64,000 nt of DNA, from positions 62,001-126,000 of the forward strand of contig NZ_JBGCCH010000022.1 of NCBI RefSeq assembly GCF_041261205.1, written 5' to 3'. The notes beneath the pieces were generated by a model that was not told the DNA's origin, made no database searches, and saw nothing but the letters and a program-made list of their open reading frames with translations. Shown piece after piece: positions 1,379-29,675 of the stretch. The number at the start of each line of letters is the position of its first letter. The stretch's first letter is position 1. The DNA is from Catenulispora sp. MAP5-51 (GTDB lineage Bacteria > Actinomycetota > Actinomycetes > Streptomycetales > Catenulisporaceae). Made by a program: the position numbers and the translations under genes.

Positions 1379-2641
1379 GTGCGGTGACCGGATTGGTTCG
1401 CCGGTTCATGTGTTGTCATGCGGCCAGGGCGAGGTCGCCTCGGGCGCGTCCTCCCCAGCGCAGTCCCTTCTCGCTGCGGACCCGGGCGCGTTCGCGGCGC
1501 TGGGCGGCGATCACGTCGGGGTGGCGGCTGTGGGCGTTGCGCCAGGTCAGGTAGGCGTGCAGGTCGCGGGTCTGCTCGGCGTGGTGGGAGCGGTGGGAGT
1601 GGGCCATGGTGAACTGCCGCAGCGGCCCGAACTGCGCCTCGATCGGGTTGGCCCAGGAGGCGTACGTCGGAGTGAACAACAGCGTGACCTGGTTCGCGGC
1701 GGCCCAGGTGCGGATGTCCTTGTTCTTATGCGCCGACAGGTTGTCCAAGATGATGAAGATCTGCTGGTCGGCCGGTCGCGTCCGCCGGATGCTCTTGAGC
1801 GCGAGCAGGGTGTTGACCGCGCCCTTGCGGCGCCGGTTGATCCCCCACAGCCGGTCGGCCCCGACGCTGTAGCAGCCGTGGAAGTAGGTCACCCCGTGCG
1901 TGCGGTGATAGGTGGCCGGCAACCGCCACGGATGCCCGGCCCGGGCCCAGCCGGCCCCGGCCACCGGGCGGATGCCCAGCGGCCCGAACTCGTCGAAGGC
2001 GAACGTCGCCTCGGCGTGGTGCTCCAGCGCGTCTTCGATCGCGGCAAGCTTGGCTTCCTTGTGCGGGTCCGGGGACTCCTTCCAGGTACGCGTGCGCTGG
2101 AAGGTGACCCCGCGCCGGGACAGCAGCGTGCGCAGCGTCTCACGCCCGATCCGGATCGGGCGGACCGGGTCAGCGGCGAGGTGCGCGGCCAGCTTGCGGA
2201 TCGACCAGCGGGTGAACGGCGCCCCGGACTTCCCGGGGTGCTTGCTCGCCACAGCTACGACGTAGTCCTCTTCGTCTTCACTGAGCAGGCGGGCGCGGTG
2301 GCCCGCCCACCGAGGGTCCAGGCATCGAAGACCGATCTCGTTGAACGCGTGGATCACATCGCGCACCGTGTCCTCGTCCGCCGCCACCAGCCGCGCGATC
2401 GCCGGCACCGTGTTCCCACTGGGCGAGGCCAACACGATCATCGCCCGCCGATACCGCACCGCACTGGCCGACCCGCGCCGCACAATCCGCAACAGCCGCT
2501 GACCTTCCTGATCGGTCAGCCGCCTGGCTTTCACTCGTTCCGCCATCAGTGCCTTTCCACTCGATGAGACGATCCATCCCACCAAAGCAGGCAACTGCGA
2601 CAGCTATTCCCGAAGCCGGTGGACCAATCCGGTCACCGCAC
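1379..2641 (-). mobile_element. IS630-family insertion sequence, complete
   Basis: A 1263-bp element bounded by 26-bp terminal inverted repeats (1379-1404 and 2616-2641). They share their outer 19 bases, GTGCGGTGACCGGATTGGT, and 24 of 26 positions overall. It is flanked on both sides by TA (1377-1378 and 2642-2643), the target duplication expected of the IS630/Tc1 superfamily. One intact transposase gene fills the element. Removing the element and one TA restores a continuous 12-bp repeat unit, so the insertion site can be read exactly. Intact ends and an intact gene suggest a recent and possibly active copy. Confidence 0.95.
1416..2546 (-). CDS. IS630-family DDE transposase
   Basis: A 376-residue transposase that cuts and joins element ends at TA targets. 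The N-terminal part is a winged-helix/helix-turn-helix region (RLTDQEGQRLLRIVRRG onward) for end binding. The C-terminal RNase H-like domain shows all three acidic residues in the motifs FDEFGP, ILDNLSAH and NPIEAQF. I take the ATG at 2546 (MAERVKARR) as the start because it opens the conserved part; an upstream in-frame ATG at 2594 lies close to the inverted repeat. No frameshift or internal stop is seen, so it should be functional. Confidence 0.93.
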   Translation of the reverse strand: MAERVKARRLTDQEGQRLLRIVRRGSASAVRYRRAMIVLASPSGNTVPAIARLVAADEDTVRDVIHAFNEIGLRCLDPRWAGHRARLLSEDEEDYVVAVASKHPGKSGAPFTRWSIRKLAAHLAADPVRPIRIGRETLRTLLSRRGVTFQRTRTWKESPDPHKEAKLAAIEDALEHHAEATFAFDEFGPLGIRPVAGAGWARAGHPWRLPATYHRTHGVTYFHGCYSVGADRLWGINRRRKGAVNTLLALKSIRRTRPADQQIFIILDNLSAHKNKDIRTWAAANQVTLLFTPTYASWANPIEAQFGPLRQFTMAHSHRSHHAEQTRDLHAYLTWRNAHSRHPDVIAAQRRERARVRSEKGLRWGGRARGDLALAA

Positions 2642-22590: not shown

Positions 22591-22622
22591 CGTCGCATCC
22601 TACGAGGGCCCGGGAAAGGGGC

Positions 22623-22655
22623 GAGGCCCAGGGTTTTGCCCGCCCTGGGCCCCTC
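22623..22655 (-). terminator. Strong hairpin after the tRNA-like RNAs
   Basis: GAGGCCCAGGG and CCCTGGGCCCCTC form an 11-bp stem with one bulge and a 9-nt loop. A second small hairpin (CCACAC/GTGTGG) lies at 22655-22671. It is placed to end minus-strand transcription through the two RNAs, or to act in both directions between these and the small gene. Confidence 0.65.
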
Positions 22656-22688
22656 CACACGGTGAGTGTGGTGCCGTCGTGGTGCGCA

Positions 22689-22824
22689 CGCCGATGGCGT
22701 TTAAGAAAGCAGGTAAGGCTGAGGCACCGCGCTCTTCCTATTGAGCTATCCCCGCATGAGAGAGCAGGGAACGGGGCTCGAACCCGCAACCTCGGTGTGT
22801 AACCCGCTTCCGGTCGATCCGGCG
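22689..22824 (-). ncRNA. Permuted tRNA-like RNA II (candidate Y RNA of the YrlA type)
   Basis: Read on the minus strand, the 3' tRNA half comes first: stem strand CACCG (22797-22793), 5-nt variable loop, T-arm GCGGGTTCGAGCCCCGT (22787-22771) and acceptor strand TCCCTGC (22770-22764). An 8-nt spacer follows, then the 5' half: GCGGGGA (22755-22749), a D-arm with GCTC/GAGC, and CGGTG (22729-22725). Acceptor strands pair 7 of 7 (one wobble) and the anticodon-type stem 5 of 5, but only in this permuted order. Outer sequences pair as a terminal helix with one bulged G (22817-22824 with 22689-22695). The exact ends are inferred. Confidence 0.72.
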
Positions 22825-22829
22825 ATGGA

Positions 22830-22988
22830 CGGCGAGGACTGAGCTTGGAGCGAGAGTCTGAAACTGCTCACTGCTGCCTCTACCTACTTGGGCTACCTCC
22901 GCACGCTTATGCAGAGGGAGGGATTCGAACCCCCACTGTCACAGTGTTCGTAAAATTCAGGCGTCACATTAAGCTTGGTCGCTCGCCG
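22830..22988 (-). ncRNA. Permuted tRNA-like RNA I (candidate Y RNA of the YrlA type)
   Basis: Minus-strand order: stem strand CACTGT (22946-22941), variable region, T-arm GGGGGTTCGAATCCCTC (22934-22918), acceptor strand CCTCTGC (22917-22911), an 8-nt spacer, acceptor strand GCGGAGG (22902-22896), D-arm (22895-22876) and GCAGTG (22874-22869). The acceptor pairs 7 of 7 and the lower stem 6 of 6 with one wobble. Further outer pairing (CTGAA/TTCAG, then GAGCGA/TCGCTC or CGGCGAG/CTCGCCG) closes the 5' and 3' ends into one long stem, as in Y RNAs. It begins about 18 nt after the stop of the gene at 23006. Confidence 0.72.
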
Positions 22989-23005
22989 CCGATCCTAGCG
23001 AAACC

Positions 23006-23740
23006 TCAGGCGAAGAGGTAACCGAATACGGCCTCGCCGACGCGCTGGTCGGTGACCTCGAAGGTGTTGGCCTCCTCGCGGGCGAACTTCACCGCCTGGC
23101 TCAGCTTCTCGACCCGCTCCACGAGCTCGTTGACGCGCTGCGCCGGCAGGGCGCCGGAGAACTTGGTCTGCGTCCAGTAGCCGATGGCGACGTCCTCGTA
23201 GTAGACCTCGACCTGGGCCGGGTGCTTCTCGGTGGCCTCGGCCTTGACGTGGTTGCGCGGCACCTTCTTGGTGCGCAGCGTGCGCACCGACTCGGTGCGG
23301 TACCAGTCCGTGGACGGGTCGGCAGACCAGGACTCGGCGGCGTCGAGCACGGGCAGCTTCTTGACGAAGGTGTTCAGGTCGGCGAGCTGCTTCTCCAGGA
23401 AGAGCAGGTAGGACACCGGCACGTCGCGCAGCAGCGTGGTGCCCTCCACGACGACGTCGGCGTGCGCCACGCAGTTGGCCCAGTCCTTGGTGGCGGTGAC
23501 GTCGAACAGGCGGGTCAGGCCCGTGGCGATCTGGCGCAGCACGTCCTCGGCCTTGACCTGCACGCGGGTGGACTCCGGGGGCAGCTGCTCGCCGTCCTCG
23601 TCCTTGGGCTGGTAGGTCCGGCTCAGTCCGGTGAGCAGGGGCTGCTTCTGGACGTCGTGGTGGGCCTGGGTGAGTTCGGCGTAGGACTTGCTCTTGACAC
23701 CTTTTTCGATCGCGATGATCTGGCTGAGTTTCGTGGCCAT
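23006..23740 (-). CDS. Conserved protein of unknown function upstream of the tRNA-like RNAs
   Basis: 244 residues from the ATG at 23740 (MATKLSQIIAIEKGVKSKSY), with GGGGGGAA upstream. It is soluble and charged, with clear conserved-looking stretches (FDVTATKDWANCVAHADVVV, VPRNHVKAEATEKHPAQVEV, IGYWTQTKFSGALPAQRVNE) and a helical C-terminus. I recognise it as a widespread actinomycete protein type without a known role. The two permuted tRNA-like RNAs start directly after its stop on the same strand, so cotranscription and a functional link (RNA binding or processing) are reasonable but untested. Confidence 0.75.
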   Translation of the reverse strand: MATKLSQIIAIEKGVKSKSYAELTQAHHDVQKQPLLTGLSRTYQPKDEDGEQLPPESTRVQVKAEDVLRQIATGLTRLFDVTATKDWANCVAHADVVVEGTTLLRDVPVSYLLFLEKQLADLNTFVKKLPVLDAAESWSADPSTDWYRTESVRTLRTKKVPRNHVKAEATEKHPAQVEVYYEDVAIGYWTQTKFSGALPAQRVNELVERVEKLSQAVKFAREEANTFEVTDQRVGEAVFGYLFA

Positions 23741-23958
23741 GATGGTTCCCCCCATGCGCTAGGGCATGTCGTGAGTCTGATGTGTTGCTGAGGCAGAGCC
23801 TATGGACGGGTGCCGACAGTCCGTACGTCGGGTCGGCCGGTCCATGGCGTGGACATGATGATGACAGACCGGGCGGGAACGGATGTAGGCAATTTCGCCG
23901 TCGCGGTAACGGTTTCCGGATCTTCCGCGGCGGGTGCCGGTGCGTCGTCGAGTTTTGA

Positions 23959-27928: not shown

Positions 27929-29470
27929 CTACTCCCCCGTCTTCATCGCGCTGAGCACCGCCGATATCTGCGCGACGATGCCGGCGAGCGTGCCGGGGTC
28001 GGATCCGCCGACCGTCACAGCCTTGTACTCCGAGGGCGCGGGCAGGTGCTCCACGATCTCGGGCAGCCGTCCGATCAGCTCCGCCTGCAACGCCGCCGCC
28101 GAACGTGCGTTCGCGATCTCCGCCCGGACTCGTTCCCGTTCCAGTTCCATCAGCTGCCGGTCGTGGTCGGCGGCGTGCCGGGCGCGGGCGGCGGCGAGTT
28201 CGGCTTCCAGCCGCATGCGGCTCAGCTCCTGCTCCTCCTCCAGCCGCAAGCGTGCCATGACGGTTTCCTGTTCGTGCCGTTCGCGTTCCAGGGCCAGCGT
28301 GTGCAGGCGGGTGTGGTGTGCCTCGTCTGCGGCTTTGCGGGCGTTGGCCTGGGAGTGCTCGTCGCGGCGTGCCTGTTCCCCGGCGTCGCGGTCGAACTCG
28401 CGGGCGGCGTTCAGGGCCCGCAGTTCGGACAGCTCGCGCTCGTCGGACAGGCGGCGGGTCTCCTGCTTGCGGTTCTCGGCCATCCGGCTGTCGGTGATCA
28501 CGCTGTCGGCGGCCAGTTCGGCCAGCGCGGCCAGGCGGCCCTGCTCGGAGCGGAACGGCTTTTGCAGGTTCTCCCACAGCGTCTTGGAGCTGACCACCGC
28601 CTCCTTGATCTGGACGGTGACGATCCGCAGGCCCAGGCCGTCCTCGGCCTGCCCCGCGCCCTCGGCGACGCCGCGCAGCCGGGCCGTGAGCTCCTCGATG
28701 ATGGGCTGCCGGTCGGAGAGCACCTCGTGCACGCTCATGGTGGCGACCTTGTCCTTGATCGCCGCCTCGGCCTGCTCGCGCAGCTGCAGGTTCACCAGCC
28801 GCATCGGGTCCTCCGGGTCGGAGAAGTCCAGTTTGCGGTAGGCGGTGCCGAAGTCCTCGATGATCCACTGTACGTAGGCCTGGACCAGGATGCCCTGCAA
28901 CTCGCTGCATATGCAGAACGCGTTCATCAAGATCGTCTGCATCGCGCCGGGCACGACCAGGAAGGAGTCGGTGGCCGGCCGGTAGCGGAAGGAGACGCCG
29001 AGGCCGATGTGCCGGGGCTTGCTCTCGCCGCGGCGGGTGTGGACCACGAACGCGTTCGGCGGGACCAGCACCGTCTTGAAGCGTCCGACACCGGTGACGC
29101 GCACCTCGACGCTGTTGGCCGGTGTCGATCCGACGCCGCGTCCGGCGTCGGCCTCGGCGGAGAAGCGTTCCAGGCGTGCGGCGCGGCCGCGGCTCGGGGC
29201 ACCCGGACCGCCGCCGCCCGGGGCCGGGGCGGGCTTTGAAAGGGACGGAGGCATCGGTTCGGGCATCCCTCCAGGAGCCGAAGGCATCGGCGGGTAAGGC
29301 ACTGACAGTTGCTGCGGCGGGGCGATCGAGCGTTCCCGCTTCTCCGCCTTCTCTCCGCGCTGACCGCCCGTGGTAGAACCGGCGTAACCCTTGGAGCGCA
29401 GATCGGACTCCAGACGTTCTTGGTTGGCCAAGACATCGTCGAGATACGTGTTGCGGCCTTGGTCCGCCAC
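27929..29470 (-). CDS. SPFH/band-7 domain protein
   Basis: 513 residues from the GTG at 29470, with AGGGGGTGA upstream. A disordered Pro/Gly-rich N-terminus (to about 130) precedes an SPFH domain (VEVRVTGVGRFKTVLVPPNA, LGLRIVTVQIKEAVVSSKTLW) and a long Glu/Arg-rich coiled coil (about 330-460) built of ERERHEQE-like heptads. No clear membrane helix is present. Such proteins form oligomeric scaffolds at membranes; the partner is unknown. The longer frame to 29740 runs through a tandem repeat and is not likely to be translated. Confidence 0.83.
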   Translation of the reverse strand: MADQGRNTYLDDVLANQERLESDLRSKGYAGSTTGGQRGEKAEKRERSIAPPQQLSVPYPPMPSAPGGMPEPMPPSLSKPAPAPGGGGPGAPSRGRAARLERFSAEADAGRGVGSTPANSVEVRVTGVGRFKTVLVPPNAFVVHTRRGESKPRHIGLGVSFRYRPATDSFLVVPGAMQTILMNAFCICSELQGILVQAYVQWIIEDFGTAYRKLDFSDPEDPMRLVNLQLREQAEAAIKDKVATMSVHEVLSDRQPIIEELTARLRGVAEGAGQAEDGLGLRIVTVQIKEAVVSSKTLWENLQKPFRSEQGRLAALAELAADSVITDSRMAENRKQETRRLSDERELSELRALNAAREFDRDAGEQARRDEHSQANARKAADEAHHTRLHTLALERERHEQETVMARLRLEEEQELSRMRLEAELAAARARHAADHDRQLMELERERVRAEIANARSAAALQAELIGRLPEIVEHLPAPSEYKAVTVGGSDPGTLAGIVAQISAVLSAMKTGE

Positions 29471-29533
29471 GATGTCACCCCCTGGATAGTCGCAATGGTG
29501 ACGGAACCGTAGCAGGGCTCGACGACAGGTGGA

Positions 29534-29621
29534 GGCCGAATCCGGCAGGGTCCGAGGCTGAATCCGGCAGGGTCCGGGGCCGAATCGGGCCGGGCCGCAG
29601 GCGCAGTCGGGCAGGGCCAAA
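29534..29621. repeat. Four 22-bp tandem repeats
   Basis: Units start at 29534, 29556, 29578 and 29600. The first two share GAATCCGGCAGGGTCCG exactly; the third and fourth have decayed. It lies in the divergent gap between the SPFH gene and the aminotransferase gene, where a promoter for either gene would have to sit. Confidence 0.85.
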
Positions 29622-29675
29622 GCGCCGGAAGTGGCCCTTGGGCCCGGCCGCCGGCGGCAATTACGATCATCAGGC

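Follow-up and report, generated by a model that had tools for sequence, protein, structure and literature searches.

A structured RNA with permuted tRNA-like domains accompanies DUF7873 genes in actinobacteria and phages

Organization of the locus

The DNA examined here, a window of 64,000 nucleotides (nt) from Catenulispora sp. MAP5-51 (assembly GCF_041261205.1, contig NZ_JBGCCH010000022.1, positions 62,001 to 126,000), contains on its minus strand a gene of the DUF7873 family (PF25283) followed by a structured RNA with two permuted transfer RNA (tRNA)-like domains. All features described below lie on this strand. The DUF7873 gene spans 23006-23755, with some uncertainty about the start codon since a second Met is found near 23740, and its product matches the Pfam model at 395.8 bits over residues 3-243 (gathering score 27) and was modeled by AlphaFold2 with a mean predicted local distance difference test (pLDDT) score of 92.8. 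Immediately past the stop codon lies a -10-like hexamer, TAGGAT (22992-22997), which as read from the sequence is a candidate promoter for the RNA. The RNA itself is estimated to extend over approximately 22618-22990, a region conserved 3' of DUF7873 in relatives, and comprises the two domains, a core, and a strong, terminator-like GC hairpin at its 3' side (22618-22653), where hairpins were also found by eye in relatives.

In the direction of the minus strand, domain 1 opens with the 5' strand of a lower, anticodon-like stem (CACTG, 22942-22946), which pairs with CAGTG at 22869-22873. Between these strands are the T-arm (22918-22934), the 3' strand of an acceptor-like stem (CCTCTGC, 22911-22917), an 8-nt spacer forming the acceptor loop (22903-22910), the acceptor 5' strand (GCGGAGG, 22896-22902), and a D-arm with GG in its loop (22876-22893). 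A conserved inter-domain core follows at 22836-22863, for which we read by eye a consensus of approximately UCAGRYUMUYGCUCYA. Next come helix P3, formed by CGCCGG (22819-22824) and TCGGCG (22689-22694), and helix P4 (22802-22811 with 22705-22714), separated by an internal loop whose two conserved strands, AUCGACC (22812-22818) and UUAAACG (22698-22704), face each other. Domain 2 is enclosed by P4 and repeats the arrangement of domain 1, with a lower stem of CACCG (22793-22797) and CGGTG (22725-22729), a T-arm (22771-22787), an acceptor 3' strand (TCCCTGC, 22764-22770), an 8-nt spacer (22756-22763), an acceptor 5' strand (GCGGGGA, 22749-22755), and a D-arm (22731-22746).

The initial annotation of this region (22689-22988), made from the sequence alone, had described two tandem RNAs, candidate bacterial Y RNAs, with cloverleaf parts in permuted order, and as a description of the domains this was borne out: in both copies the T-arm and acceptor 3' strand precede the spacer, acceptor 5' strand, and D-arm, the acceptor stems pair at 7/7 positions with one G-U apiece, and the lower stems pair at 5/5. 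The accompanying claim that pairing in the normal order (22902 with 22764) gives mismatches was correct in that a mismatch exists, but there is only one (6/7), a weak point of the argument for permutation when the window is taken alone. Among relatives, a normal order pairs 7/7 in only 2 of 66 distinct stem combinations, while the permuted order does so in 62/66 for domain 1 and 64/66 for domain 2, in loci selected at 6/7 or better. We consider the permuted order settled because relatives so rarely pair completely in the normal order. One relative, L065, gave a normal-order tRNA match of 28.0 bits, slightly below the gathering score of 29. In the window, ARAGORN, which was not made for permuted genes, reported no tRNA, and Rfam at its gathering scores gave no match anywhere in the 64 kb. 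The long stem said to be formed by the outer ends is supported for copy 2, where it corresponds to P3 and P4, and is less sure for copy 1.

A conserved architecture in relatives

The relatives scanned were the 80 closest of 559 confirmed in public actinobacterial genomes and the 80 closest of 457 viral ones in IMG/VR. The scan for permuted domains required a T-stem of at least 4/5, an acceptor stem of at least 6/7, U8, a TTCRA T-loop, and a D-stem, so that these stems are paired partly by construction; no pairing in P3, P4, or the lower stems was needed for a locus to be selected, and domain pairs were accepted only with T-loops 130-190 nt apart. At least one domain was found in 78/78 actinobacterial and 66/74 viral DUF7873 loci with at least 600 nt of downstream sequence. 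The corresponding controls returned 0/78 and 5/74 for up to 900 nt upstream, 1/78 and 1/74 for the reverse strand, and 0/78 and 2/74 for shuffled sequence. Two or more domains were present in 53/78 actinobacterial and 43/74 viral loci. Among 30 further loci (L003-L032), five (L012, L015, L016, L020, and L032) have by eye no domain 1 and a shorter stretch in its place. Both domains were found in 102 loci, representing 98 distinct pairs, in which subtracting the first spacer from the distance between the T-loops leaves 134-152 nt, with a mode of 138. The acceptor stems vary widely, with 35 distinct versions in domain 1 and 55 in domain 2, and pairing is kept, partly through selection. Of the marks of tRNA tertiary structure, the D-loop GG, unlike the TTCRA T-loop and U8, was not a requirement of the scan, and it is present in 42/42 and 41/42 viral and in 53/53 and 53/53 actinobacterial domains (domains 1 and 2, respectively).

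Covariation was counted in an alignment (A3) of 40 domain-2 halves, which were taken from a set of 43 sequences after removal of L054, L135, and L167. The set was limited to domain-2 spacers of at most 10 nt, presence of the AUCG and UUAAA-like motifs, and at most 93% similarity; AUCG is invariant in A3, whose rows were chosen partly on this motif. For a structure drawn from A3's own sequences, 91.3% of cells are paired, compared to 71.0% (standard deviation [SD] 0.7) in shuffled and at most 46.8% in slid alignments, and 302 cells show changes on both sides of a pair against 80.1 (SD 8.7) after shuffling. Helix P3 is paired in 98.8% of cells with changes on both sides in 5/6 pairs, helix P4 in 92.2% with such changes in 9/9 pairs, and the domain-2 lower stem in 71.4%, likewise with changes on both sides. 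In 60 non-redundant loci, the domain-1 lower stem forms a mean helix of 5.32 base pairs with its own partner and 3.86 with re-dealt partners. None of 200 re-dealt shuffles reached the observed value for the lower stems of either domain, and the outer stem is weaker in this respect, with 3/200 shuffles reaching it. Covariation among homologues, whose absence the initial annotation had named as an outcome that would count against its proposal, is therefore present both in the lower stems and in P3/P4.

These comparisons establish, at the level of sequence, a structured RNA of about 0.3 kb downstream of DUF7873, with two permuted tRNA-like domains (one in some lineages) whose anticodon-like stems continue into the predicted core helices. 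The window had been expected to yield two free RNAs of 130-160 nt. This now appears less likely, given the near-constant spacing of the T-loops and the additional helices and core that are conserved in relatives; both copies appear to belong to a single conserved RNA architecture of about 300 nt.

Association of the RNA with DUF7873

To determine how closely the RNA follows the gene, we used a covariance model (R1) built from the domain-2 halves of DUF7873-linked RNAs, with stricter filters for the genome searches. The window itself is outside the training alignment, although its close relative L129 is inside it, and matches R1 over the full length of the model at 115.9 bits (22686-22830). Of 60 genomes searched, 34 carry DUF7873, the Catenulispora genome included, and all 34 have an R1 match of at least 56 bits adjoining the gene, compared to 0 of the 26 genomes without DUF7873. 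The match in G003 covers only part of the model, and a genome with two DUF7873 genes has two matches. In the 26 genomes without the gene the best R1 score was 51.3 bits, from a match to part of the model. Two sources of weaker matches could be recognized: tandem tRNA-Asn genes (two places examined), and Y RNA-like elements situated at a distance of about 1 kb from a gene for a TROVE-domain (Ro60-type) protein in 6 of 7 TROVE-positive genomes among eight tested. All 30 loci taken from the genomes with DUF7873 (L003-L032) contain at least one permuted domain by the scan, and by hand count 68/80 viral loci have an R1 match of at least 55 bits, 14 of the 68 being training sequences. A scan of IMG/VR for the core motif returned eight stretches, six with both DUF7873 and R1 matches and two with neither; five of the six contigs with DUF7873 were already among the collected loci. 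By these sequence searches, the RNA accompanies DUF7873 and not TROVE in the tested genomes.

The RNA is usually located directly 3' of DUF7873 on the same strand. Exceptions are L104, where it is encoded on the other strand, and L059, where it is about 0.8 kb away. In the Microcoleus phage locus L045 there are only weak R1 matches (28.8 and 25.0 bits), separated from DUF7873, and no tRNA is found there. The region between the gene and these weak matches in L045 (3441-4952) contains a HEARO RNA and a 425-residue reading frame that is probably IscB-like. The opposite orientation in L104 and the elements lying between DUF7873 and the weak matches in L045 hint that the RNA may act in trans.

In the wider phylum, DUF7873 was found in 7 of 396 sampled genomes. 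Searches by tblastn identified 73 phage records when the window protein served as query and 88 when a Vibrio phage protein was used, many of them near-identical, with hosts including Vibrio, Gordonia, Rhizobium, Klebsiella, Serratia, Arthrobacter, Pseudanabaena, Rhodococcus, Microcoleus, and Prevotella; four plasmid records were also found. We read 11 such loci, ten from phages and one from Nonomuraea, and nine contain permuted domains downstream by the scan, with none in L045 and L048. The gene and RNA occur as a pair in Arthrobacter, Gordonia, Rhodococcus, and Pseudanabaena phages as well as in viruses from metagenomes. The pair often lies near tRNA genes: 45/80 viral loci have such genes within about 2 kb, 178 of these 186 genes being on the DUF7873 strand, and annotated tRNAs lie close by in 6/9 annotated phage loci. 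One viral DUF7873 frame (L100, 2001-2732) has a single in-frame stop codon.

Comparison with known RNAs and alternative explanations

Transfer-messenger RNA (tmRNA) also joins a tRNA-like acceptor and T-arm to a larger RNA, and two-piece permuted tmRNAs offer a precedent. By analogy, RNase P and a 3' nuclease could excise the spacers, so that a nicked RNA of two to three pieces would remain, its NCCA ends open and possibly charged. In viral members NCCA does stand directly 3' of the acceptor stem in 24/42 (domain 1) and 20/42 (domain 2) distinct pairs, where 2-3% would be expected, and U is found at position -1 in 23/42 and 34/42. Position 74 is C in 40/42 and 41/42 viral and 45/53 and 53/53 actinobacterial domains, and position -3 is C in 39/42 and 34/42 viral and 53/53 and 53/53 actinobacterial domains. 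Against processing of this kind, NCCA occurs in just 18/53 and 2/53 actinobacterial pairs, the tRNA-like domains 3' of DUF7873 in L084 and L119 have by eye very long insertions in their acceptor loops, and a G3-U70 pair is rare (2/35 and 4/55 distinct stems). The RNA also differs from tmRNA in possessing a full D-arm, and the tmRNA model (RF00023) at its gathering score matches neither the window nor the RNA in L038-L045. A processed, tmRNA-like RNA is possible but rather unlikely, and not an explanation we favor. A related and equally speculative proposal, to which we give a similarly low likelihood, is a new class of phage-carried RNA-protein machine, made up of DUF7873 and its RNA and independent of Ro60, in which the acceptor loops would be opened by RNase P and a 3' nuclease and the two tRNA-like ends of the nicked RNA charged or gripped together, allowing one particle to engage two tRNA sites such as two enzyme subunits or ribosomal sites. 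A separate Rfam tmRNA match (89 bits, spanning 529 nt) was observed at 575-1103 of L039, inside a tRNA cluster of the Gordonia phage Phendrix.

A close likeness is to the YrlA RNAs (RF02553) that partner Ro60/Rsr, which share the permuted T-arm, the closed acceptor-like stem, and the D-arm set on a long stem, and YrlA is described as tethering Rsr to PNPase (PMC8394870). If the window encoded a true pair of YrlA-family Y RNAs, both would bind a TROVE protein encoded elsewhere and tether PNPase. The genome does have two TROVE matches over the cut-off, as a search suggested at the outset revealed, as well as a match to RtcB, but the TROVE matches are on contigs C2 and C7, away from the window on C22. 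The suggested comparison with the Rfam YrlA model, made under relaxed settings on 601 bases, likewise gave matches to both copies that fall below the gathering score of 69: 35.4 bits for copy 2 (E 5e-6) and 19.8 bits for copy 1 (E 0.16). Relatives L013, L024, L038, and L049 score 28.1-36.1 bits. This threshold is a weak test, as the TROVE-linked RNAs of L241 (from G014) score just 41.2 and 31.5 bits and the RNA of L002 is unlisted at E up to 0.1; the Rfam model may be too narrow for actinobacteria.

A further comparison uses the stem on the Ro60 side, which we defined from L002, L210, and L241. L002 is a locus of the same Catenulispora genome in which a permuted tRNA-like Y RNA (approximately 2480-2640, minus strand) lies immediately upstream of a TROVE-type gene. 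L210, also from this genome (C8:52559-52678), has a further Y RNA-like element at 1492-1640 with the same stem strand, on a contig with no TROVE match; R1 matches of similar score occur elsewhere in other genomes of the genus. The 5' stem strand GGTGCGCAGGCANCGGNTACTTC is common to L002, L210, and Streptomyces TROVE loci, and by inference contacts Ro60. It has no match in the window at up to three mismatches, and exact copies occur in only 6 of 250 loci (L002, L210, L234, L235, L236, and L241), none of which is a DUF7873 locus. A TROVE match was present in two of the 20 DUF7873-carrying phage or viral records and absent from the other 18, although viral records may be fragments, and the DUF7873 protein itself has no match to TROVE in Pfam scans and a 0.1% probability in a profile comparison with one TROVE-type protein. 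At the Streptomyces TROVE loci (G014, G018, G037, G044, G052, and G059), the distance between TROVE and the Y RNA-like elements, of which there are one or two, is about 1 kb, and in five of the six compared, two such R1 matches lie near TROVE, a further likeness to the paired domains of the window. The window-type RNA differs in that its two domains are usually part of one architecture of about 300 nt with a conserved core and P3/P4 loop, and in lacking the shared Ro60-side stem strand. With DUF7873 and not TROVE as its conserved neighbor, and with YrlA scores below threshold, it is quite unlikely to be a pair of Ro60 Y RNAs, and the identity originally suggested for it does not hold up well.

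The combination of a small protein with an adjacent structured RNA, its occurrence in phages, plasmids, and chromosomes, and its patchy distribution among relatives would also suit a type III-like toxin-antitoxin or defense pair in which the RNA restrains DUF7873. We think this about as improbable as a Ro60 identity, since the RNA is complex and not a short repeat, and Pfam detects no nuclease family in the protein. Nor is it probable that the RNA is a cis element, a structure in the 3' untranslated region of the DUF7873 mRNA through which tRNA-binding enzymes would be sensed and the gene regulated. Its usual position directly 3' of the gene on the same strand would fit, but the RNA of L104 lies on the opposite strand, that of L059 is displaced, and in the window the RNA is flanked by a -10-like box and a terminator-like hairpin.

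In algae and archaea, circularly permuted tRNA genes place the 3' half before the 5' half (PMC3978253, PMC3218864), the order of parts seen here, and the initial annotation had allowed for true permuted tRNA genes. The acceptor, T, and D arms of the domains are indeed all complete and permuted; however, joining the halves forms no anticodon loop, as the domain-2 lower stem continues into the covarying helices P4 and P3, and no tRNA was called by ARAGORN, within the limit of that tool noted above. Genes yielding functional tRNAs are accordingly very unlikely. That tandem tRNA genes or remnants of tRNAs produced the pattern as an artefact can be practically dismissed: tandem tRNA-Asn genes do yield partial R1 matches, but no tRNA lies at the locus, and the near-constant geometry and compensatory changes contradict it. 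GOLLD RNA is another structured RNA that occurs in tRNA arrays, but the window has no Rfam match at gathering scores and its RNA has a different partner.

Proposed function

The reading we favor, with moderate confidence, is that DUF7873 and the RNA form a gene-plus-RNA module whose product is a particle working like a Y RNA particle, with a mimic of the tRNA elbow set on a stem held by the protein, yet with an RNA that is not a Ro60 Y RNA. We infer this from the co-occurrence of R1 matches with DUF7873, the covariation of helices that were not selected for, the D-loop GG, the hints of action in trans, and the tRNA context in phages. The RNA would be transcribed alone or together with DUF7873, and a stable particle would result from binding of the protein either to the core or to the internal loop between P3 and P4 (AUCGACC/UUAAACG). 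The tRNA-like elbows could then dock a tRNA-binding client, such as a nuclease like PNPase or a tRNA-modifying or tRNA-cleaving enzyme, the particle serving as an adaptor or decoy by analogy with the role of YrlA for Ro60 and PNPase.

In phages, where the RNA is often near tRNA genes, such a particle might help to preserve or protect the tRNA pool while the phage infects its host. In some bacteria, the Ro60 system is reported to belong to an operon for RNA repair that tRNA fragments activate (PMC7790460). The tRNAs and RNA repair genes carried by jumbo phages have been read as answers to tRNA cleavage (PMC7824862), and phage tRNAs have been proposed to resist host anticodon nucleases (PMC10264068). 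These accounts make it reasonable to suppose that the particle may help phages to manage the tRNA pool. The copies in actinobacteria may be phage modules that have been domesticated.

Permuted tRNA mimics are familiar from Ro60 Y RNAs, in which they form the effector end. In the present case a domain of this kind, usually present twice, is built into a larger RNA and accompanies a different protein family of unknown function in phages and actinobacteria, a recurrent pairing that points to an undescribed RNA-protein machine resembling, yet differing from, the bacterial Ro60/Y RNA system. If this is true, DUF7873 gains a testable role, tRNA mimicry extends beyond Ro60, and there is a new angle on how phages with tRNA genes cope with the contest over tRNAs. 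The pair is carried by phages whose laboratory hosts are Gordonia and Arthrobacter, which makes direct testing possible.

Neighboring genes

In the window, a Band_7/SPFH protein is encoded at 27932-29644 (minus strand), about 4 kb from DUF7873, and the locus of Rhodococcus phage NiceHouse likewise has a band-7-like gene nearby.
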